Made by a program: the position numbers and the translations under genes. Shown here one piece after another: positions 7,588 to 22,052 of a stretch of 36,909 bases of DNA. Each line of letters begins with the position of its first letter. Within the stretch, counting starts at the first letter, position 1. The notes beneath the pieces were generated by a model. That model was not told the origin of the DNA, did not search any database, and worked only from the letters and a program-made list of their open reading frames with translations. Source of the DNA: Desulfarculaceae bacterium (GTDB lineage: Bacteria; Desulfobacterota; Desulfarculia; Desulfarculales; Desulfarculaceae); NCBI GenBank assembly GCA_027067385.1, contig JAMOVV010000104.1:1-36909 (forward strand). The letters run 5' to 3'.

Positions 7588-7908
7588 CTAGTCGTCGGCG
7601 GGGGGGTCGGGTGGGGTTTCTTCTTTTTCCAGGGCGGCAAGCTTGGCCTTGAGCTCGGCCACCTCGGCCTTGTAGCGGTCTACGTCGGGGTTATCGCCCG
7701 CGGCGGCAAAGGACTCGCGTGAGGCTTCCATCTCGGCCCGACGTTTGTCTTTCATTTCCTCGACACCGAGGTAGGTGGCCAACGCACCGCCCAAAAGCAA
7801 GAGCACCGGGATCGCGCCCTTGAGCAGGTCGATGAATTCTCTTCCCCAACTGATGAGCCCGATGACGCCGAGAACCAAGGCGGCGACACCACCTACTAAT
7901 GCCACCAT
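7588..7908 (-). CDS. Small two-helix membrane protein, MamI-like pattern
   Basis: The start at 7908 is chosen because a strong ribosome site (GAAGGAGGAAATCAG) lies directly before the ATG. The 106 residues begin with two hydrophobic helices (about 1-20 and 31-50) joined by a short loop with a Trp (LISWGREFIDLLKG). A Lys/Glu-rich amphipathic coiled coil follows (about 52-95), with an acidic Pro-rich tail. The pattern (helix, W, LLKGxIP, helix with Gly) resembles the short magnetosome membrane protein MamI, although the charged C-terminal helix is extra. No other magnetosome gene is here, so function is unknown. It is transcribed alone from the promoter at 8030-8059. Confidence 0.72.
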   Translation of the reverse strand: MVALVGGVAALVLGVIGLISWGREFIDLLKGAIPVLLLLGGALATYLGVEEMKDKRRAEMEASRESFAAAGDNPDVDRYKAEVAELKAKLAALEKEETPPDPPADD

Positions 7909-7970
7909 CTGATTTCCTCCTTCAGAAGTAGACAAGTTAAGTCGCGGTAAATAAAACGGACTGGTCTTTC

Positions 7971-7996
7971 GATGTAACCCAACGATGTAACCCAAC
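7971..7996. repeat. Exact tandem 13-mer in the 5' UTR of the two-helix protein gene
   Basis: GATGTAACCCAAC occurs twice head to tail (7971-7983 and 7984-7996). On the minus strand it reads GTTGGGTTACATC twice, within the ~115-nt leader between the predicted promoter and the start codon at 7908. It could be a regulator site or a slippage duplication. Confidence 0.7.
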
Positions 7997-8029
7997 GGGG
8001 GGTTTTGGTGCTGGTTCGCCCGTTGATTC

Positions 8030-8059
8030 TGTGTAGCACGCACCCGGTGAAAGTGTCAA
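8030..8059 (-). promoter_or_regulatory. Sigma70-type promoter for the two-helix protein gene
   Basis: On the minus strand TTGACA (8059-8054, perfect -35) is separated by 18 bp from TACACA (8035-8030, 4/6 match to -10). The inferred transcript starts near 8023, leaving a leader of about 115 nt. Confidence 0.55.
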
Positions 8060-12319: not shown

Positions 12320-15300
12320 CTAGCGCGACACCCGTATGCGGGAGGCGCGCATCTGGCGCACGCACACCGGGCAGACGTACGGTTGGGCCTCGGGCCGGCT
12401 GGGGCGGTGCATCAGGTTGTCGAGCCGGTCCAGGTAGGCCTGGGAGGCGAACGGCCGGCCGCAGAGCGAGCACGGCACCAGCTTCAGCTCCTGGATGGCC
12501 GTGCCGGTGAACACGGTGCGCCGGGTGTCGCCTACCTCCTCCATGCGTATGGCCCCGGTGGGGCAGGAGTTGGCGCAGGAGCCGCAGCCCACGCAGCGCT
12601 CCGAGGCCCGCTCGAAGTCGGAGAACACCCGGCGGTTCATGCCGGTATCGCGCAGCACCAGGGCGTCGGAGCCCACCTCCTCGCAGGCCAACTGGCATAG
12701 GCCGCAGCCGATGCACAGGTCGCAGCGCAGGCAACGCAGGGCCTCGGAGCGGGCGGCCTCGTCGTCGAGAATCTGCATCACCAGGTCGAAGCTCTTGATC
12801 CGCTGGCTCGCCGGCAGGGTCACCGGGACCGAGCGTATGGGGTTGGCCCGCTGGGCCACGGTGCCACCCACCGGCTCCACCGGCATGGTGATGGTGGGAT
12901 GCTCAAAGGCCAGCTCCACCAGCTTGTCCTTGAGATAGGCGTCGATGGCCCGGGCCGCCTGTTTGCCCATGGCCACGGCGCCTATCACCGTGTCGGGCCC
13001 CACCACCGCGTCGCCACCGGCGAAGACCCAGTCCAGCGAAGTCTGCAAGGACTGGGGGTCCACCTCCAGCCGGCCCCGCTGGTTCACCGCCAGGCGGCCG
13101 GACTCACCCAGGTATTCCAGGCCAGGCCGCTGGCCGATGGCGATGAGCGCGCCGTCGATGGGCATGGAGTGCTCGGAGCCCTCGATGGGCACCGGCCGCC
13201 GGCGTCCGCTGGCGTCGGGTTCGCCCAGCTTCATGGAGATCAGCTTGATGGCGCTTAGCTTGCCGTCCTGGGCCTCGAACCCCGTGGGGGCCACCAGGTA
13301 CTCGATGGCCACCCCCTCTTCCACCGCCTGTTCCACTTCCTCGGCGTGGGCCGGCATCTCGTGGCGGGTGCGGCGGTAGAGGATGGTCACTTCCCGGCTG
13401 CCCAGGCGCAGGGCGGTGCGGGCGGCGTCGATGGCCACGTTGCCGCCGCCCAGCACTACTACCCTCTCCCCCGGTGAGTCGGCCTGGCCCAGGGAGGCCT
13501 GGAGCAGGAAATCCACCCCGGACAAAACCCCGGGCAGGTCCTCGCCCTCGATCCCCAGGCGCAGGCCGCGCTGGGCCCCGGTTCCCAGGAACACGGCGTC
13601 AAAGCCGTCATCGCGCAACGAGTCCAGGGTGAAGTCCCGCCCCAAGCTCCGGCCGGTGTGCATCTTCACCCCCATCTCGGCGATGGCGTTCACCTCGGCC
13701 TCGATGACCCAGTGGGGCAGGCGGTAGGCCGGGATGCCCAGGCGCATGGTGCCGCCGAGCACCTCGTGGGACTCGAAGATCTCCACCCGGTGACCCCGCA
13801 GGGCCAGGAAGTAGGCCACGCTGAGGCCGGCCGGGCCGGAACCGATCACCGCCACCCGCTTGCCGCTGTCGGCGGCCATGGGGGGCAGGGGGTAGCCACC
13901 CTGGTCCAGGCAATGCTGGGCGGCCACCGCCTTCATCACCCGGATGGAGATGGGGGCGTCGATGGCCCCGCGCAGGCAGACCTGCTTGCAGGGGGCCGGG
14001 CAGACCAGCCCGCAGATATAGGGCAAGGGGTTGTCGCGGCGGATGACCTCCAGGGCCTCGCGGTAGCGGCCGTGACCCACCAGGGCGATGAAGGCCGGGA
14101 TGTCTATGTTGGCCGGGCAGCCGGAGCGGCACGGCGGCACCAGGGGGGCGTGGGCGTCAAAGGTCACGCAGCTCTGGTTGTTGGCGTGGGCCATCCACTC
14201 CTCGCCAAAGTGCATCAGGGAGCTCTTGAGCGGCCAGCCCGAGGGCCAACCCACCGACACCAGCTTGTCGGCCAGGATGCCCAGTTGGTCCAGGAGGGTG
14301 GGGTCGCCCTGGCGCATGGCGATACGGGTCACCAGGCGCAGGGCGTTGAGAGCCAGTTGGTGGGTCACCTCGTCGTGGTAGCCTCCCTGGCCGGCCAGCT
14401 CGGTGAGCGCCCGGCGCACCAGGTCCACCACGCAGTGGTTGGGGTCCATTATCCAATAGGTGGTCGAGCCGGGGTTCACCCCGGCCAGGGATAGCTCCTC
14501 CGGGGCCAGCAAGGTGTGGGTGAGGTGTTGGGGCAAAAAACCGCCCAGGCCGTTGTCCAGGGCCAGGAAGCTGCCGTCTCCCTGGGAGGGGTCTTCCACC
14601 CCCCATCCCAGGACATGTGACAGCGGCTGGCCGGCGGCCACCTCCAGCAGGCGGGGCTCGCCGCCCCGGCCACCCACGGTGATCAGGCGGGTGCCGGGCA
14701 CCCCGTCCACGCCCTGGGCGGCGAACCATTCAGCCCCCCGGCTGAAAAGCAACGGCACTTGATACCAGGTCTGCTGGCGGTGGTTGATCGAGGGTTCATC
14801 GGTAGAGCCGGAGGTCTCATCGCTCTCCAGCGACAGCTCCACCCGCTGACCCGGGGCCAGCTCGTGCGAGGCGGCCTCGGCCAGGGCCGAGCGCAGGGCC
14901 GGCTTGAGATAGTCGTCGCCCGGCGAAAGCAACAACCGCACCCACTTGGCCCCGGTGGCCAGGGCAGCGATGAACAGCGCCTCCACCAGGCCATAGGGAT
15001 TTTGCTTGAGCAGGTTGGCGGTGAGCAGGGACCGCGGGTCCGACTCGCGGGCGTCGACCACCAGCACCCGGTCGCCGATGCTCTGCATCAACTCCAGCCA
15101 GGCCAGGTATACCGGCCCGCCGCCCGCTCTCCAGTCCCGCAGGCCGGCGGCCCGCAGCTCGGCGATGATGCCGGCCGGCCCCAACCGGCAGGCGCGGGCC
15201 GCGCCGGCAAAACCGCCGGCGGCCAGGTAATGGTCCATGAGCCCGCCGCCGGCCTCCCGGCACCAAGCCAACACACCATCGGCCGGATCGCCCCGGCGGC

Positions 15301-15337
15301 TCAGGTCCCTGGTCTCTTGGTTCACCTGGTCATGCAT
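12320..15337 (-). CDS. NuoF-like/GltD-like fusion flavoprotein with ferredoxin clusters (paralog 1)
   Basis: A predicted cytoplasmic electron-transfer flavoprotein of 1005 residues. Residues about 35-385 align by eye with NuoF (YLAAGGFAGAARA, IIAELRAAGLR, NPYGLVEALFIAA, an SLBB-like GTRLITVGG), but the FMN/NADH loop GRGGAGFP and the N3-cluster cysteines are gone. About 403-470 is the GltD/NfnB-type Fe-S region (CRSGCP, NPLPYICGLVCPAPCKQVC). FAD motif GSGPAG is at 499-504 and NAD(P)H motif GGGNVAIDAAR at 630-640. The C-terminal quarter holds CLRCDLCIGCGLCQLAC and CVGCGSCANSCP clusters, then a ribbon with CSLC and CPVC. Ribosome site GGAGAG precedes the ATG. It is last in the Mo-enzyme operon and probably exchanges electrons with NAD(P)H. 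Confidence 0.88.
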   Translation of the reverse strand: MHDQVNQETRDLSRRGDPADGVLAWCREAGGGLMDHYLAAGGFAGAARACRLGPAGIIAELRAAGLRDWRAGGGPVYLAWLELMQSIGDRVLVVDARESDPRSLLTANLLKQNPYGLVEALFIAALATGAKWVRLLLSPGDDYLKPALRSALAEAASHELAPGQRVELSLESDETSGSTDEPSINHRQQTWYQVPLLFSRGAEWFAAQGVDGVPGTRLITVGGRGGEPRLLEVAAGQPLSHVLGWGVEDPSQGDGSFLALDNGLGGFLPQHLTHTLLAPEELSLAGVNPGSTTYWIMDPNHCVVDLVRRALTELAGQGGYHDEVTHQLALNALRLVTRIAMRQGDPTLLDQLGILADKLVSVGWPSGWPLKSSLMHFGEEWMAHANNQSCVTFDAHAPLVPPCRSGCPANIDIPAFIALVGHGRYREALEVIRRDNPLPYICGLVCPAPCKQVCLRGAIDAPISIRVMKAVAAQHCLDQGGYPLPPMAADSGKRVAVIGSGPAGLSVAYFLALRGHRVEIFESHEVLGGTMRLGIPAYRLPHWVIEAEVNAIAEMGVKMHTGRSLGRDFTLDSLRDDGFDAVFLGTGAQRGLRLGIEGEDLPGVLSGVDFLLQASLGQADSPGERVVVLGGGNVAIDAARTALRLGSREVTILYRRTRHEMPAHAEEVEQAVEEGVAIEYLVAPTGFEAQDGKLSAIKLISMKLGEPDASGRRRPVPIEGSEHSMPIDGALIAIGQRPGLEYLGESGRLAVNQRGRLEVDPQSLQTSLDWVFAGGDAVVGPDTVIGAVAMGKQAARAIDAYLKDKLVELAFEHPTITMPVEPVGGTVAQRANPIRSVPVTLPASQRIKSFDLVMQILDDEAARSEALRCLRCDLCIGCGLCQLACEEVGSDALVLRDTGMNRRVFSDFERASERCVGCGSCANSCPTGAIRMEEVGDTRRTVFTGTAIQELKLVPCSLCGRPFASQAYLDRLDNLMHRPSRPEAQPYVCPVCVRQMRASRIRVSR

Positions 15338-15415
15338 GGGTCACTCTCTCCACTCCGGCGCCCTGCCCTGCGCGCACTACTGCGTCCAAAATCCCGCAAT
15401 GCCCTGTATGGTGTC

Positions 15416-15478
15416 TATAATTAATGCCCCCAACGCCCGGGCCGGTCAAGCCTTTGTGCGTTGGGGGCGGGTTTTTTT
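15416..15478 (+). ncRNA. Possible short intergenic RNA (TATAAT box plus intrinsic terminator)
   Basis: In the 149-bp gap between the two minus-strand paralogs, the plus strand has a perfect TATAAT (15416-15421). Six bases on comes a 10-bp stem, CCCCCAACGC (15427-15436) with GCGTTGGGGG (15458-15467), a 21-nt loop, then GCGGG and seven Ts (15472-15478). No plus-strand gene exists upstream for it to terminate. It could be a ~50-nt RNA divergent from the operon, or the hairpin may act in the minus-strand mRNA. The -35 is poor. Confidence 0.35.
15427..15478 (+). terminator. Strong intrinsic-terminator-like hairpin between the paralogs
   Basis: A perfect 10-bp GC-rich stem is followed by a T7 tract on the plus strand. 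On the minus strand, along which the operon is read, the hairpin remains but is followed only by ATTAATTATAGA. It may therefore modulate expression of paralog 1 or protect mRNA ends rather than terminate. Confidence 0.6.
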
Positions 15479-15486
15479 CCGGACAG

Positions 15487-18400
15487 TCAGTGGCTCAGGA
15501 TGAAGAGGTGACCCCCGGCCAGTTCCTCGGCCCGGTGCCGCCGGGCGCAGGGAGAACAGATATGGCGGTCGATATGCTCGTGGTAGTCCGGCCCGCCGCG
15601 GGCCTTGAGGTGCTTGAGGTAGGACAGGGGGGCGTAGGGCTTGCCGCATTCCTCGCAGGTGACCAGCTCCTGCTCGCGCACCACGGTGCCGGTGATGCTG
15701 GTGCGGCGCACTTTGCCGGAGTCCTCCACCCGGATGGCCCCGGTGGGGCACACCTGGCTGCAGGCCCCGCAGCCGATACAGCGGGTCGAGGGCCGGGTGT
15801 ACTCGGTGAAGGCCAGGCGATCGGCCTCGGTGTCGCCCAGGCGCAGGGCCTCGGCCCCCACCTCGGCGCAGACCAGTTGGCACAGGCCGCAGCCGATGCA
15901 CAGGTCGCAGCGCAGGCAGCGGGCCGCCTCGTCGTCGGCCTGTTGGTCGGTGAGCCCCAGCTCCACCTGGTGGTAGTTGCCCTCGCGGTCCTCCACGTCC
16001 AGCATGGAGATGGCCGTCCGCCGGGTGTTGGTGCGCTTGATGGCGTCGGTCTTGAGCGGCGGCACCACTTGGCGGTGGTCGCGGTCGCGCCAGTCTTCCG
16101 GCAGTTGCTGGCCGCGCAGGTAGGCGTCGATGGCCGCCGCCGCCCGCTTGCCGCCGCCCACCGCGTCGACCACGGTGCGGGGCCCGGTCACCACGTCGCC
16201 GGCCGAGAAGACCCCCGGCTCGGCCGTGGCCATGGTCCATTGGTCAGCCCGGATGAGCCCGCGCTCCACCTCCACATGGCTGCCGGCCTCCACGCAGGCC
16301 AGGTCGGTGGCCTGGCCGATGGCCAGGATCACGTGGTCGCCGTGCAGGGTGAGGGTGCGCTCCGGGTTGAAAGTGGGGTTGAAGCGGCCCCGCTCGTCAA
16401 AGACCTGCGGGCAGTGGATAAAGGTCACCGCGCCATCGGCTGCAATGGACTTGGGCCCCCAGGAGTTGTGGATGTCCACCCCCTCGGCGATGGCCGTGTC
16501 GATCTCGTGGGGGTGGGCCGGCATCTCGCGGCGTTTCTCCAGGCAGACCATGTCCACCCGCTTGCCGCCTTGGCGGCGGGCCGAGAGGGCCACGTCGATG
16601 GCCACGTTGCCGCCGCCCACCACCACCACCCGGGGTCCCACCCGGGGGTCTTCGCCGCGCCGCACCTGCTTGAGAAAATCCAGGCCGCCGAGCACGAACG
16701 GCTGATCGGCTCCGTCGATGGGTATCATGCGCGAAAGCTGGGTGCCCACCCCCAGCATGATGGCGTCAAACCCCTGGCGGCGCAGCACGTCCAGGTCCTC
16801 CACCTGGGTGCCGGTGTGGATGCGAACGCCCAGGCGCTCGATCTCGGCTACCTCGGCGTTGATCACGTCATGCGGCAGGCGGTAGGCCGGGATGCCGTAG
16901 CGCAGCATGCCGCCGGCCTCGTCCTGGGCCTCGAAAATCTCCACCTGGTGACCCTGGGCCGCCAGGAAGCGGGCCGCGGCCAACCCGGCCGGACCGGCCC
17001 CCACGATGGCCACCCGCTTGCCGCTGGACTCGGCCGGCGGGCCCCAGGGGTAGTGGCCCTCGGCCAGGGTCTTCTTGCTGGCCACCGCCTTCATGGCCCG
17101 GATACTCACCGGCTGGTCCACCTGCTGGCGCAGGCAGACCCCCTCACAGGGGGCCGGGCAGACCAGGCCGCAGGCATAGGGCAGCGGGTTGTCGGTGGTG
17201 ATCACCTCGATGGATTCGTCGTAGCGATGGTGGCCGATAAGCGCCAAAAAGGCCGGGATGTCGATGCCGGCCGGGCAGGTGCGGTGGCAGGGCGCCAGGG
17301 GCTTTTCCAGGCAGATGCCGGCCGGGCAGGTGCCACCGGACACATGGTCGCGCCACTGCTTGCGGAAATAGGTGAGCGCGGTGATCAGGGGCCAGGCCGG
17401 GGCCAAGCCCTCGGCGGCCATGGTGCGGCCCAGGGCCTCCAGCTCCACCAGGTGGGCTGGCAGTCCCTTGCCGCGGCTGATCTCCACCACCATGCGCAGG
17501 CCCCGGGTGATAAGGTTGCGCGACGGGGAGTCGAAGTTGCGCGACAGGTTCCAGTAGCGGTAGAGCATGCGGCGGGTCTGGTCCACTATGCAGTGGTCGG
17601 CCCCCAGAAGTTGCACTGTGCCCAAGCCCGGGTTCACCCCGGCGGCGGCCAACTCCTCCTGGGCCAGGGTGATGTCCCCGCCCGAGGGGGGCAGGAACCC
17701 GCCCATGCCGCCGTCCACGGCCAGGGCCAAGGGCTCCACCGCGTCGCGGAAACCACCGCCGATGGTATGCACCACCTGGGCCAGGCCGCCGCCCACCGGC
17801 ACCTCCACTAGGCCGGGGTTATTCACCTCGCCGCTGAGGGTGACCAGGCGGGTGCCGGCGTGGCCCTCGCGGCGCAGCTCCCCCATGCGCTCGGGGCCCA
17901 GGAGAAAGGCTAGGGCGATGTGGTACCAGGTCTCCAGGCTGTGGCGCAGAACCGGGCCCGGCTCCTCACCGGGGCGATGGCCGGCCATGAAGATCGATGG
18001 CTCCTGGTCGCTGACCAGCTCCAGGCTCGGGGGCTCCACCCCCGCCAGCCCCACCTCGGCCGCCTGTTCCACCGCGTTGAGCAATAGGTGCTCAAAGACC
18101 TCCATCTCCGGGGTCATCAAGACCTGGCAACGGTTCACCCCGAACACCTGGGCGGCGCAGAAAAGGCCCTCCACCAGGCCGAAGGGGTTTTGGCTCAGCA
18201 GGGTGAGCCAGGCCTGGCCGGCCGCGTCATACTCCACCGCATCCACCACCAGCACGCCCGGCTGGTGGGTGCGCGAAAACCGCTGCCACTGGAGATAAAC
18301 CGGGTCGGTGTCGCCGCCGCGGTCGCGCAGACCGCTGGAGCGCAGCTCGGCGATTACCTCCAGTTGGTTGAGCCGGGCCACCCGCTCCAGGCCCTCGAAT

Positions 18401-18507
18401 CCGCCCAAGCGGCGGTAGTGCTCAATGGTGGGCTCACCCAGTTCCTGGGACCAGGCCAGTAGGGTGCGGCCCAGGACCAGGGATAAAACATTGGCGTCAG
18501 TCCCCAT
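15487..18507 (-). CDS. NuoF-like/GltD-like fusion flavoprotein with ferredoxin clusters (paralog 2)
   Basis: A 1006-residue paralog of the downstream gene with the same domain order. The NuoF-like region (HYRRLGGFEGLERVARLNQ, EVIAELRSSGLRDRGG, NPFGLVEGLFCAAQVFG, SLBB-like GTRLVTLSGEVNNPGLVEV) keeps more of the ancestral pattern, including GLRDRGG, but lacks the AGFP half and the N3 cysteines. Next come CHRTCP, NPLPYACGLVCPAPCEGVC, FAD motif GAGPAG and NAD(P)H motif GGGNVAIDVA. It then has CLRCDLCIGCGLCQLVC, CIGCGACSQVCP and a CEECG...CSPC ribbon. There is no signal peptide or membrane segment. GTAGGGAG precedes the ATG, 11 nt after the ferredoxin stop, so it is co-transcribed with the Mo subunit. 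It probably links the ferredoxin subunit to NAD(P)H. Confidence 0.88.
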   Translation of the reverse strand: MGTDANVLSLVLGRTLLAWSQELGEPTIEHYRRLGGFEGLERVARLNQLEVIAELRSSGLRDRGGDTDPVYLQWQRFSRTHQPGVLVVDAVEYDAAGQAWLTLLSQNPFGLVEGLFCAAQVFGVNRCQVLMTPEMEVFEHLLLNAVEQAAEVGLAGVEPPSLELVSDQEPSIFMAGHRPGEEPGPVLRHSLETWYHIALAFLLGPERMGELRREGHAGTRLVTLSGEVNNPGLVEVPVGGGLAQVVHTIGGGFRDAVEPLALAVDGGMGGFLPPSGGDITLAQEELAAAGVNPGLGTVQLLGADHCIVDQTRRMLYRYWNLSRNFDSPSRNLITRGLRMVVEISRGKGLPAHLVELEALGRTMAAEGLAPAWPLITALTYFRKQWRDHVSGGTCPAGICLEKPLAPCHRTCPAGIDIPAFLALIGHHRYDESIEVITTDNPLPYACGLVCPAPCEGVCLRQQVDQPVSIRAMKAVASKKTLAEGHYPWGPPAESSGKRVAIVGAGPAGLAAARFLAAQGHQVEIFEAQDEAGGMLRYGIPAYRLPHDVINAEVAEIERLGVRIHTGTQVEDLDVLRRQGFDAIMLGVGTQLSRMIPIDGADQPFVLGGLDFLKQVRRGEDPRVGPRVVVVGGGNVAIDVALSARRQGGKRVDMVCLEKRREMPAHPHEIDTAIAEGVDIHNSWGPKSIAADGAVTFIHCPQVFDERGRFNPTFNPERTLTLHGDHVILAIGQATDLACVEAGSHVEVERGLIRADQWTMATAEPGVFSAGDVVTGPRTVVDAVGGGKRAAAAIDAYLRGQQLPEDWRDRDHRQVVPPLKTDAIKRTNTRRTAISMLDVEDREGNYHQVELGLTDQQADDEAARCLRCDLCIGCGLCQLVCAEVGAEALRLGDTEADRLAFTEYTRPSTRCIGCGACSQVCPTGAIRVEDSGKVRRTSITGTVVREQELVTCEECGKPYAPLSYLKHLKARGGPDYHEHIDRHICSPCARRHRAEELAGGHLFILSH

Positions 18508-18518
18508 CGCGTGGCTCC

Positions 18519-19034
18519 CTACATCTGGCTGAAGGATTCAGCGGCCATGGCCTTGGCGTAGCGCTGCCGGCGGTTGTCCGGCAGTTGGGAAGCCTCGCCG
18601 AATTGCAGGCACTGGGTTACGCACTTGGTGACGCAGGCCGGCTTGAGACCCTGGTCCAGGCGATCCTTGCAATAGTCGCACTTCACCGCCTTGCCCCGGG
18701 TGGGGTCCCACTGGCAGGCGCCCCAAGGACAGGCGGTGATGCAGCTCTTACAACCGATGCACAAGGACGGCTCGATGAAGACTATGCCGTCGCTCTTGCG
18801 TTTCTGGATGGCCCCGCTGGGGCAAACGTTCATGCACCAGGGCTCCTCGCAGTGGAAGCAGGGCATGAACACAAAACGGATGCGCGGCATGCCCTTGACG
18901 TCCACCGGGCCCACCACCATGTTTTTGCACAGCACCGGACCCACGCCGAGCCCCTTGTTGGTCTTGCAATGCACTTCGCAGCCCGAGCAGCCGATGCACC
19001 GTTCCGCTTCCTGCAAAAGATAGTACTTGCTCAT
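18519..19034 (-). CDS. Four-cluster 4Fe-4S ferredoxin subunit (DmsB/PsrB/HycB-like)
   Basis: The 171-residue electron-transfer subunit of the molybdoenzyme. The cysteines form four 4Fe-4S groups typical of the DmsB/NrfC/PsrB family: CIGCSGCEVHC (13-23), CFHCEEPWCMNVCP (about 59-72), CIGCKSCITACPWG (about 93-106), and CDYC plus CVTKC (about 119-138). There is no Tat or Sec signal, so it is cytoplasmic like its partner. The gene is 27 nt after the Mo subunit and 11 nt before paralog 2. It would carry electrons from the Mo/W centre to the flavoproteins. Confidence 0.93.
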   Translation of the reverse strand: MSKYYLLQEAERCIGCSGCEVHCKTNKGLGVGPVLCKNMVVGPVDVKGMPRIRFVFMPCFHCEEPWCMNVCPSGAIQKRKSDGIVFIEPSLCIGCKSCITACPWGACQWDPTRGKAVKCDYCKDRLDQGLKPACVTKCVTQCLQFGEASQLPDNRRQRYAKAMAAESFSQM

Positions 19035-19061
19035 GACTCTTTCGCCCTTTCGCTCGCCGGG

Positions 19062-21194
19062 TTAGGCCTTGGTTACCGTAACAACACACTCGGTAAGGTT
19101 GTTGCCGCCGCCGGCTTGATCATAGGCGGTGAGCAATCCCTTTTGCAGCCGCTGATCGGCCATGCCCTTGCCATAGGCCCGGGTCTGCAACGGCACCGTG
19201 CGGCCGAACCCGTGCAGCATGAACACCGCCTCGGGATGAATCCACGGAGTTACGGTAAGCGGTCCCTCGGTGCTATAGTCCCCGTTGCTCACCCGCACCG
19301 TGTCGCCGTCAGACAGCCCCAGCTCCTCGGCCGCCTGGGGATGCATCCACAGCGAGTTGCTCGGCAGAATCTCGTGCAACAGGGGGTTGTTCATGGTGTG
19401 AGCGTGGTTGTGCACCCCGGAGCGCCCAAAGAGCAGCCGGAACTGCCCCGGTGCCAAGTCCGGCGGCGGCTGGAACTCGGCTAGATCGGGCAGGCCGGCA
19501 TCGGCCAACACGCTGGAGGTGAGCTCGATCTTGCCGGAGGGGGTCTGGAACTTGAGCCCGTCGTCGCGGTCCCACAAGATGTCGCGGTCGCTTAGCTGCA
19601 CCAGGCCGCGCTCCCGCAGGTCCGAGACCGACACCCCGGTGCCCTCTAGTTGGTATTCCCAAAACTCCTCGATATTCTCAAAGTCGAAATATTCGCCCAC
19701 CCCCAGGCGCACGGCCAACTCACGGAAAATCCACCAGGCCGGCCGGCTGTCGAAACGGGGGGCTATGGCCTGGTCGCGCATGGTGAAATAGGGCTTGGTG
19801 CCGCTCTTGGAGATGAGAATATTGGCCCGCTCCAGGTAGGTGGCCTCCGGCAGGATCACGTCGCTGTACCACCCGAACTCCGAGTAGTTGACATCGATGG
19901 ATACCAGCAGGTCCAGCTTGTCATAAGCCCGCTTCTGGGCATCGGGATCCGGCAGGCTGGAGATGGGATCGTGGCGATAGGCGATATAGGCCTTGACGGG
20001 ATAGGGCTCGCCGCTCTCGATGGCCGGGAACAACAGGTGCAGCAGGCCGGGGCCGGAGTCGAAGTGAGTATACTTCCAGCCGCAGCCGTCCACTCGTTTC
20101 TCCTCCACCTCCGGTATCTTGTCGATGAGCTTGTTCAAGCTCTTCTTGCCGGCGTCGCTGGGTCCCTTGGCCGCGATGAGCCCGCCCTTCACCTCGATGG
20201 CTCCAAAGAGCACGTTGAGGATGTAGCTGGTCCGGCTGGTGTAGAACGACTGCCCGTGACGGGCGGTCATCCAACCGCCATGGAAGGTCACTCGCGGGGC
20301 GTCGGCGGCGATCTCGTGCACCATCTCGATCATCTCGGCCGCCGCAATGCCGGTTATCTCCTCGGCCCACTGGGGAGTCTTGTCGGCCACGAACTTCTGC
20401 AACTGCTCAAAACCCACCGTCCAGCGGGAAACGAAATCCTTGTCGTAGAGCTCGTCCTTGATCACCTGGTGAATCAAGGCCAGGTTCAGGGCGTACTCGG
20501 TGTTGGGCCTCACCTGCAGGTAGCGGGTGGCCTTGGAGGCGGTGTAGGTGGCCCGCGGGTCGATGTAGGTCATCTTGGCCCCAGCCGATAAGGCGTCGAT
20601 CACCGCCTTGGCCTCCTTGACCTGGAACGACTCTATGATATTGCGGCCGTAAAACACCATGTGCTTGGTGTTCTTGAAATCATACCCGAACCCGGTGCGC
20701 TTGAGACCAAACAAGCTCATGGAGGCGTGGTGGGCGTTGCGGCCGCAGGTGCAGTCGTGGTTGAAATAGTTGGGCGAACCGATGGCCCGGACAAAGCTCT
20801 TGCTCAGATCGGTGAAAGGTCCCCCCCGGTCGCTGTAGGCTATGGCCCGGCCGCCGTGCTCCTCGATGACCGCCTTGAGCTTGTCGGCGATGTAGTCCAG
20901 GGCCTCCTCCCAGGTGGCCCGCCGCCACTTGCCCTCACCCCGTTCGCCGGCGCGGATCAGGGGATACTGCGGCCGCTCGTCGTCATACTCAAAGGCCAGG
21001 CCGGCCGCGCCCTTGGCACACAGGCTGGTGCCCATGGACTTGTCATTCGGGTTGCCCTGCAGCCATACCGGCCGGCCGTCTTCCACTTCGACCTCGATAG
21101 GGCAACGCACCGCACACATGCCGCAAAGACTGAAAACTTTGCGGCGGCCGGGGCTCTCGACTCCGGTCACGTTAGGCGCCTTAAACGACTCCAT
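19062..21194 (-). CDS. Cytoplasmic molybdopterin oxidoreductase catalytic subunit (PsrA/PhsA-like)
   Basis: The 710 residues form a DMSO-reductase-superfamily catalytic subunit binding a bis-MGD Mo or W cofactor. The N-terminal 4Fe-4S motif is CGMCAVRC...C (Cys24, 27, 31, 59). The region where this family carries its metal-ligand Cys reads FNHDCTCGRNAHHAS (144-158; Cys148 or Cys150). Further cofactor segments are YGRNIIES, YIDPRATYT, and the C-terminal domain from LLFGRSGVHNHAHTMNN. An Arg pair (17-18) is followed directly by the cluster cysteines, not a hydrophobic stretch, so there is no Tat signal. Overall pattern and ferredoxin partner suggest thiosulfate/polysulfide-reductase or formate-dehydrogenase-like relatives. 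The substrate is not readable from sequence. First gene of the operon; AAAAGGAG precedes the ATG. Confidence 0.88.
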   Translation of the reverse strand: MESFKAPNVTGVESPGRRKVFSLCGMCAVRCPIEVEVEDGRPVWLQGNPNDKSMGTSLCAKGAAGLAFEYDDERPQYPLIRAGERGEGKWRRATWEEALDYIADKLKAVIEEHGGRAIAYSDRGGPFTDLSKSFVRAIGSPNYFNHDCTCGRNAHHASMSLFGLKRTGFGYDFKNTKHMVFYGRNIIESFQVKEAKAVIDALSAGAKMTYIDPRATYTASKATRYLQVRPNTEYALNLALIHQVIKDELYDKDFVSRWTVGFEQLQKFVADKTPQWAEEITGIAAAEMIEMVHEIAADAPRVTFHGGWMTARHGQSFYTSRTSYILNVLFGAIEVKGGLIAAKGPSDAGKKSLNKLIDKIPEVEEKRVDGCGWKYTHFDSGPGLLHLLFPAIESGEPYPVKAYIAYRHDPISSLPDPDAQKRAYDKLDLLVSIDVNYSEFGWYSDVILPEATYLERANILISKSGTKPYFTMRDQAIAPRFDSRPAWWIFRELAVRLGVGEYFDFENIEEFWEYQLEGTGVSVSDLRERGLVQLSDRDILWDRDDGLKFQTPSGKIELTSSVLADAGLPDLAEFQPPPDLAPGQFRLLFGRSGVHNHAHTMNNPLLHEILPSNSLWMHPQAAEELGLSDGDTVRVSNGDYSTEGPLTVTPWIHPEAVFMLHGFGRTVPLQTRAYGKGMADQRLQKGLLTAYDQAGGGNNLTECVVTVTKA

Positions 21195-21598
21195 ACCAGA
21201 CTCCTTTTAACGCTGGTCTCACCACAAGTAGTTACCAGTGAAATGCACCGCATTTATAGCGGCAAACTATCCTTTTTAGTAACCGACCTCCTTTTATACA
21301 ACAGCAGAGCATTATTCACAAGCTTTCACCCAAACTTGTCCCACCCCATGCCCGCCCCGGGCAATTACGCATATCACTACGTTTTTACTTGCTTTATGCC
21401 ATACCCCCCTGCCCAGACGGCATCGGTGCGCCAAAAAATACTTCCCCCCCCATAGGACTACTTGATAATCATTTCAGCCCAGCTAATCCCCAGCTCCTGG
21501 TTTAAGTTGTGCGCAGCCGGTGGGCGACCTATCTTATATAGTAGTCAGCCGTACCGAGGCCGATTATGGCGCATCGTCGGCTCTGTCCGCCCCAAAGC
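21195..21598. other. AT-richer intergenic region between the redox operon and tRNA genes
   Basis: This gap carries the leader and promoter of the minus-strand redox operon (to about 21321). The following ~280 bp is AT-richer than its surroundings and contains no convincing gene. Short runs (C8 near 21445-21452) and AT boxes (CTTATATAGT near 21534) are visible, but no paired promoter elements. Confidence 0.4.
21293..21321 (-). promoter_or_regulatory. Candidate sigma70 promoter of the Mo-oxidoreductase operon
   Basis: On the minus strand TTGTGA (21321-21316), a 17-bp spacer and TATAAA (21298-21293) fit a promoter about 95 nt before the start codon. A second TATAAA lies at 21258-21253. Two similar boxes, GGTTACTA and GGTAACTA, occur in the leader (about 21284 and 21235) and could be regulator half-sites. 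Confidence 0.45.
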
Positions 21599-21627
21599 TT
21601 GACGCCCCAACTGGCCGATGGTAATTA
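21599..21627 (+). promoter_or_regulatory. Sigma70 promoter for the tRNA-Ser genes
   Basis: TTGACG (21599-21604), an exact 17-bp spacer and TAATTA (21622-21627) lie about 42 bp before the first tRNA. The inferred start is near 21634. Confidence 0.65.
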
Positions 21628-21668
21628 ATGCGTGGGCCCAGGCCCCGGCGCTGGCGACCCCTATGTAC

Positions 21669-21754
21669 GGAGGGATGGCCGAGTGGTCGAAGGCGGCGGT
21701 CTTGAAAACCGTTGACCGAAAGGTCCGTGGGTTCGAATCCTACTCCCTCCGCCA
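21669..21754 (+). tRNA. tRNA-Ser (anticodon UGA)
   Basis: The 86-nt gene folds as a serine tRNA. Acceptor GGAGGGA pairs with TCCCTCC, the discriminator is G, and CCA is encoded. The D-arm region is GCCGAGTGGTCGAAGGC and the anticodon TGA is at 21703-21705 in CTTGAAAA. A variable arm, GACCGAAAGGTC, and the T-arm TGGGTTCGAATCCTA complete the fold. It reads UCN codons. Confidence 0.96.
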
Positions 21755-21774
21755 ACCCAGGCCACCGCCGGCCA

Positions 21775-21825
21775 GGGGGCCAAGGGGGCCAGGGGGCGGA
21801 GCCGGGGGCAGGCGGTGACGGGGGG
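21775..21825 (+). other. G-quadruplex-like tract between the two tRNA-Ser genes
   Basis: Five runs of at least five Gs occur on the plus strand at 21775-21779, 21784-21788, 21792-21796, 21804-21808 and 21820-21825, with loops of 4, 3, 7 and 11 nt. The first three belong to a local AGGGGGCC repeat. The tract lies in the spacer that would be transcribed with the tRNAs. Confidence 0.6.
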
Positions 21826-21959
21826 AGCCGGGTGACACCAAGCGGGAGCCGGGCGACGGGGTTGCCGGTAAAGCAAGGGGGACTGCCCGGCAAAGCATAT
21901 AAGGCCTTGGCCGCGCCAGGCTAACCAGGGCCTGTCCACAACCGAATCAGAACGCCAGC

Positions 21960-22052
21960 GGAGAGATGACCGAGAGGCCGAAGGTGCTCGCCTGCTAAGC
22001 GAGTGTGGGGTTAAAAGCTCCACCGAGGGTTCGAATCCCTCTCTCTCCGCCA
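21960..22052 (+). tRNA. tRNA-Ser (anticodon GCU)
   Basis: The 93-nt gene has acceptor GGAGAGA pairing with TCTCTCC, discriminator G and encoded CCA. The D-arm region is ACCGAGAGGCCGAAGGT and the anticodon GCT is at 21994-21996 in CTGCTAA. A long serine-type variable arm and the T-arm AGGGTTCGAATCCCT follow. It reads AGC and AGU codons. It is probably co-transcribed with the UGA tRNA 205 bp upstream. Confidence 0.96.

Follow-up and report, generated by a model that had tools for sequence, protein, structure and literature searches.

The four genes A, B, C and D of a Desulfarculaceae bacterium (contig JAMOVV010000104.1) are proposed to encode a cytosolic, non-bifurcating, NAD(P)H-linked molybdenum reductase acting on a Dsr-linked sulfur compound, a reading to which a probability of roughly 0.5 is attached. 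Within this reading, the NAD(P)H-linked, non-bifurcating architecture is much firmer than the substrate assignment. A preliminary description of this DNA had recognised the gene set, which is confirmed, and its cytosolic link to NAD(P)H, which is supported; its analogy with bifurcating complexes and its cofactor-bearing NuoF half are not. The features new here are a seemingly dead NuoF scaffold, two nucleotide motifs, an association with dsrA and an A-B head that swaps between NAD(P)H modules and complex I.

Operon organisation and conservation

The window, meaning the whole stretch of 36,909 nucleotides analysed, carries the four genes on the minus strand, at the place first described, with the following features:

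A, 19062-21194, minus strand: 710 aa, cytosolic PsrA/PhsA-type bis-MGD catalytic subunit
B, 18519-19034, minus strand: 171 aa, four-cluster [4Fe-4S] ferredoxin subunit of the DmsB/PsrB/NrfC type
C, 15487-18507, minus strand: 1006 aa, fusion of relic NuoF/SLBB, Fer4_20/GltD and C-terminal 2[4Fe-4S]
D, 12320-15337, minus strand: 1005 aa, paralog of C with the same architecture, GltD domain with YRRTR
Putative relic NuoF domain of C, 17323-18507, minus strand: FMN motif GLRGRGGAGFPT..KW replaced by GLRDRGGDTDPVYLQW, glycine loop excised, N3 cysteines lost
Putative relic NuoF domain of D, 14150-15337, minus strand: FMN motif replaced by GLRDWRAGGGPVYLAW

The tight spacing reported at first holds for A-B (27 bp) and B-C (11 bp), and less well for D, which is separated from C by 149 bp. 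The flanking genes (pyrF, tRNA-Ser, flagellar genes and EtfAB) are unrelated to A-B-C-D. Scans of the operon and of flanking genes revealed no NrfD, cytochrome or quinone protein, and to that extent the lack of a membrane anchor, cytochrome or quinone site noted earlier stands. The GC content of the A-B part is lower (about 0.61-0.64; window 18000-22000) than that of the C-D part (about 0.70). At 7588-8043 of the window, a small membrane-like protein adjoining a bPH_2 protein gave a MamI-like match; this magnetosome lead is probably due to chance and is unsupported, as the match is below the cut-off, is the genome's only one and arises in a control archaeon too.

The order A-B-C-D recurs in six other genomes of the same family (G004, G012, G014, G017, G018 and G019, that of G017 and G019 being read across contig ends), and the identity of A and C to their orthologs in the syntenic genomes is about 58-72%. 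A-B-D without C is present in three genomes (G003, G007 and G010), and A-B-C without D in G021, which belongs to a different family of the same class. Because synteny recurs in six further genomes, and A-B accompanies C or D elsewhere, the set is not a product of chance. A scan of genome contigs returned only one distant locus, from Verrucomicrobiota. The NuoF-like and GltD-like parts are separate genes in opposite orientation in G006, G009, G011 and G015, and in G004 a free-standing relic NuoF domain of 365 aa is encoded directly after D (L041:14788-15885).

The catalytic subunit and its ferredoxin

Subunit A contains the Molybdop_Fe4S4, Molybdopterin and Molydop_binding domains of Pfam and has the features of the PsrA/PhsA branch of the DMSO reductase (CISM) family, namely the Mo-bisPGD fold, an FS0 cluster (cysteines C24/C27/C31/C59) and a Cys ligand to molybdenum (C150). 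Its best NCBIfam match is PhsA (NF012032), at 555 bits and below the curated cut-off of 694, while its best PDB sequence match is Thermus polysulfide reductase (PSR), at 406 bits. The predicted model (pLDDT 88) also has PSR as its top structural match (2vpw_A, TM 0.87), with acetylene hydratase and Arr as the next-closest structures. Judged from the reading frame and the genes of the operon, A lacks the Tat export and NrfD/PsrC anchor of this branch. With only 714 open codons in the frame, the 710 aa protein could gain no more than 4 residues at its N-terminus, too few for a Tat signal; recovery of such a signal through an alternative start is rejected on this ground, and the initial description of a bis-MGD catalytic subunit without a Tat signal is borne out by both domains and frame. 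The window's genome also encodes two PhsA-like enzymes that carry twin-arginine leaders and are accompanied by B subunits (L149:4749-7702 and L150:5763-8675). Subunit B is DmsB/PsrB-like and contains 16 cysteines in four CxxC-type groups, in agreement with the four-cluster ferredoxin first proposed.

In the 2008 paper on the PSR structure, His145 and Arg332 are reportedly important in the active site. Alignment places Arg123 of A at His145 and Trp308 at Arg332, so that neither PSR residue is present in A. Arg123 and the Mo-ligand Cys150 are kept in all 55 A proteins, position 308 being Trp in 51 and Tyr in 4, and Arg persists at PSR position 332 in both exported PhsA-like proteins that the window's genome encodes. 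With these residues, A follows the plan of PSR, to which its model is nearest, yet is not a PSR. On such sequence grounds the A proteins form a distinct clade, marked by invariant R123 and C150 and by W/Y308, with an active site that differs from those of known sulfur reductases, which may mean that the substrate differs as well. Formate dehydrogenases are recognised by a His adjoining the Cys/Sec ligand to molybdenum; the residue after the ligand is Gly, Ala or Ser in the A sequences shown, and the identity of A as a formate dehydrogenase is rejected on the missing His.

The flavoproteins C and D

Profile searches return weak NuoF matches for C and D, followed by Fer4_20, Pyr_redox_2 and Fer4_7. 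In C, matches to Complex1_51K and SLBB lie below the cut-off; the NuoF/SLBB region spans about residues 1-395, Fer4_20 and the GltD FAD/NAD(P) domain about 399-800, and the C-terminus holds 2[4Fe-4S] plus a CxxC...CxxC finger. The NuoF region aligns over its full length with NuoF/HydB chains, and the best PDB match of the family profile is 9bov_B, the B subunit of Caldicellulosiruptor NfnABC, which served as reference for the motif comparison. Relative to this chain, all 14 relic sequences lack the FMN motif (GLRGRGGAGFPT..KW) and the motif NADEGDP, have the NADH/FMN glycine loop (GAGAFVCGEETAL...PPFP) excised and lack the N3 cysteines, including that of LCGLGQ; the motifs are intact in the controls, the NuoF of G002 and two intact fusions. 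C and D are thus without the FMN motif, glycine loop and N3 cysteines of NuoF/HydB bifurcating flavoproteins, and, as read from these lost cofactor motifs, their NuoF half is a relic. It would bind no FMN, NADH or N3 cluster and would be retained as a scaffold or docking fold. A NuoF module turned pure scaffold next to a live partner would be a clean case of modular decay. The X proteins (G001 and G020) and the fusions of G102 and G115 represent intermediate or other grades of NuoF decay. Families f12 and f25 also pair A-B with degenerate NuoF-GltD fusions, so the relic is not confined to one class. Of the multi-cofactor flavoproteins of about 1000 residues first described, the size (1006 and 1005 aa) and the GltD and Fe-S motifs stand, and the cofactor-bearing NuoF half does not.

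In C and D, it is only the GltD half that looks live. Conservation covers both Rossmann motifs, the cysteines of the C-terminal clusters and most of the Fer4_20 cysteines. D has all the features of a GltD/StnC-type NAD(P)H-oxidising FAD domain (Rossmann folds, Fer4_20 clusters and NADPH motif), while C carries CLEKR in place of the NADPH motif. The NADPH-type sequence YRRTR is present in every D and X protein examined, and CLEKR in every C, which on the basis of this single motif suggests that C uses NADH. As the motifs differ, one entry for NADH and one for NADPH are suggested. Together with the missing Tat signal, the live-looking GltD sites support the earlier proposal of a cytosolic complex coupling a bis-MGD enzyme to NAD(P)H. 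In the tree, C and D form two old clades; the window's D sits on a long branch and is missing a cysteine ahead of the Fer4_20 clusters (FDAH vs FDCL in other D proteins). Both paralogs are not strictly required, because G003, G007 and G010 have D only and G021 has C only. The need for two, left open at first, is thereby answered in part: they do not always occur together, and their motifs suggest separate entries.

At the position of StnC K170, all 19 C, D and X sequences have lysine. In StnC, whose FAD does not bifurcate, this lysine is a ligand of the FAD-proximal cluster, while NfnB has glutamate there (PMC10482914). The operon departs from the NfnB-type bifurcating GltD in having Lys in place of Glu and no NfnA homolog, and the StnC-type lysine makes simple transfer from NAD(P)H to molybdenum likelier than bifurcation. 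HydABC-like bifurcation is rejected on NuoF motif loss; with the FMN motif, NADH/FMN loop and N3 cysteines gone and Lys standing for Glu, the analogy with bifurcating NuoF complexes (HydABC, Stn) drawn in the preliminary description is not supported.

Distribution and exchange of electron partners

In a sample of 395 genomes, one per species from one phylum, the A clade occurs in 101, so that a cytosolic molybdoenzyme for which no assigned role was found is present in about a quarter of the genomes. Of these carriers 97 of 101 have dsrA, against 93 of 294 non-carriers, and within the class the figures are 19 of 21 against 3 of 42, both comparisons being confounded by ancestry; half of the dsrA carriers are without A.

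At 46 A loci, the same strand carries nuoABCDHIJK in 12 (families f20, f33, f70, f84 and f97), other partners being NuoEF (5), GltD (3) and degenerate NuoF-GltD fusions (2); the remaining loci have B alone or no partner. Partner labels need 14 changes in all on the A tree, and the electron partner of A has been swapped repeatedly between relic NuoF-GltD, intact NuoEF, GltD alone and NuoABCDHIJK. In at least 12 genomes (L165, L166, L168, L176, L177, L179-L182, L193, L195 and L196) a nuoABCDHIJK operon is headed by A-B, and searches for NuoE and NuoF gave no match beside these 12 operons. The Nuo identities were confirmed by NCBIfam for one operon and for the NuoH of another. It looks as if the molybdoenzyme had replaced the NADH module of complex I in these operons. 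The absence of a membrane partner described earlier thus holds for the operon of the window and does not extend to other families, whose A-B pair heads a complex I operon. In G006 and G011 a second A-B pair follows NuoN-/antiporter-like membrane genes on the same strand (L141:6352-13420 and L148:1002-10440).

Proposed function and alternatives

In the proposed reductase, electrons would enter at the FADs of the GltD halves, from NADPH via D and probably from NADH via C. The two N-terminal and two C-terminal [4Fe-4S] clusters of the flavoprotein would relay them to the four clusters of B, and from there they would travel by way of FS0 in A to the Mo/W-bisPGD on Cys150, where a cytosolic sulfur compound would be reduced without bifurcation. 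Both this order and the assembly of A, B, C and D into one complex are inferred. The substrate is most likely a sulfur compound that Dsr-bearing bacteria produce or encounter in their cytosol; thiosulfate (to sulfite and sulfide) ranks first among the candidates, followed by polysulfide or trithionate.

Thiosulfate is placed first on three grounds. The low potential of thiosulfate fits donors at the level of NAD(P)H. In G002, A is the only PsrA/PhsA-type match in the genome. Finally, according to PMC4215793, citing Parey 2010, thiosulfate is released by DsrAB in vitro, so that a cytosolic thiosulfate reductase would have a role to play. The same paper states that DsrAB can itself reduce thiosulfate in vitro (PMC4215793), and a separate enzyme may therefore be unnecessary. 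Cytosolic NAD(P)H-dependent reduction of polysulfide and thiosulfate occurs in Thermotoga, by an NSR-type enzyme with no known molybdenum centre (PMC9431562). Literature searches found no paper on cytosolic NAD(P)H-linked molybdenum thiosulfate reductases and no biochemistry for any A-B-C-D member. The identity of the substrate would show whether sulfate reducers recycle thiosulfate leaked by Dsr, and what drives some of the A-B-bearing complex I operons without adjacent NuoEF; A-B-C-D is a tractable soluble version, with NADH and NADPH as predicted donors.

A broader reading, offered tentatively, takes A-B as a cytosolic oxidoreductase of sulfur compounds that has gone unrecognised in Dsr-bearing bacteria, a plug-in unit whose whole electron partner is exchanged. 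As parts of the same joint proposal, A-B would replace NuoEFG in Thermodesulfobacteria-like lineages to give a molybdoenzyme-headed, proton-pumping complex I, and in Desulfarculaceae-like and some other bacteria it would be wired to NADH and NADPH via a pseudo-NuoF scaffold, as a mirror of Stn.

Since A-B lies within complex I operons of other families, the direction could also be oxidative. A would then oxidise a low-potential cytosolic substrate, either sulfite plus sulfide (to thiosulfate) or an organic compound, with C and D making NADH and NADPH or, with complex I, electrons passing to menaquinone and protons being pumped. This is held to be unlikely, though a donor is needed where A-B heads nuoABCDHIJK without adjacent NuoE/NuoF, and Thermosulfurimonas dismutans, which is missing NuoEFG, has no assigned donor to its complex I (PMC4911364). 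Against it, complex I is also reversible, the closest characterised families (PSR and PhsA) are reductases, and A is without the formate dehydrogenase His beside the Mo ligand.

It is improbable that A-B docks in vivo on the orphan complex I core of its own genome and is membrane-attached, with C and D as side entries for NADH and NADPH. A nuoABCDHIJK set without NuoEFG upstream does lie at the end of contig C46 of the window's genome, and A-B is found inside nuo operons elsewhere; however, A-B-C-D is unlinked to nuo in the window's genome, and five genomes with A-B, namely G012 (A-B-C-D), G007 (A-B-D), G001, G002 and G020, have no NuoD match, which argues that A-B with C/D does not need complex I. 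A complex of the HydABC/Stn/NfnABC kind that bifurcates or confurcates electrons, linking the molybdenum reaction to NAD(P)H and ferredoxin, is very improbable, since despite the modules shared with StnABC/NfnABC (NuoF, GltD and molybdopterin domain), the best PDB matches to those complexes and the intact NuoF-GltD partner of A in G197, the NuoF half of C/D appears dead, Lys replaces the Glu of NfnB, and homologs of NuoE and NfnA are absent from the operon.

Comparison with known systems

In relation to PsrABC/PhsABC (Thermus PSR, 2vpw), A corresponds by homology to the catalytic subunit and B to the ferredoxin subunit, with the Mo-ligand Cys aligned. They differ in the lack of Tat and of an NrfD/PsrC anchor, in the NAD(P)H flavoprotein as partner, and in the changes of PSR His145 to Arg and Arg332 to Trp in A. 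StnABC/NfnABC (8oh5, 9bov and 9n5u) are the best structural relatives of both halves of C/D, which share the StnC-type lysine. In Stn, the molybdopterin (FdhF-like) domain is inactive, NuoF is alive and bifurcation is carried by the StnAB module (PMC10482914), whereas in the operon NuoF seems dead and fused to GltD, and the molybdopterin enzyme looks alive.

The nuo operons without adjacent NuoE/NuoF of Thermodesulfatator-like genomes resemble the present operon in the A-B orthologs at their head, but the partner there is a membrane quinone module rather than NAD(P)H flavoproteins. Intact NuoF-GltD fusions (G197, G001 and G036) have the domain order of C/D and differ in retaining the FMN, NADH loop and N3 motifs (G197 and G001). 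Those of G001 and G036 adjoin formate-dehydrogenase-like proteins, while that of G197 follows an A ortholog and NuoE (L163:3369-9103) and looks like a living counterpart of the decayed NuoF-GltD fusions.
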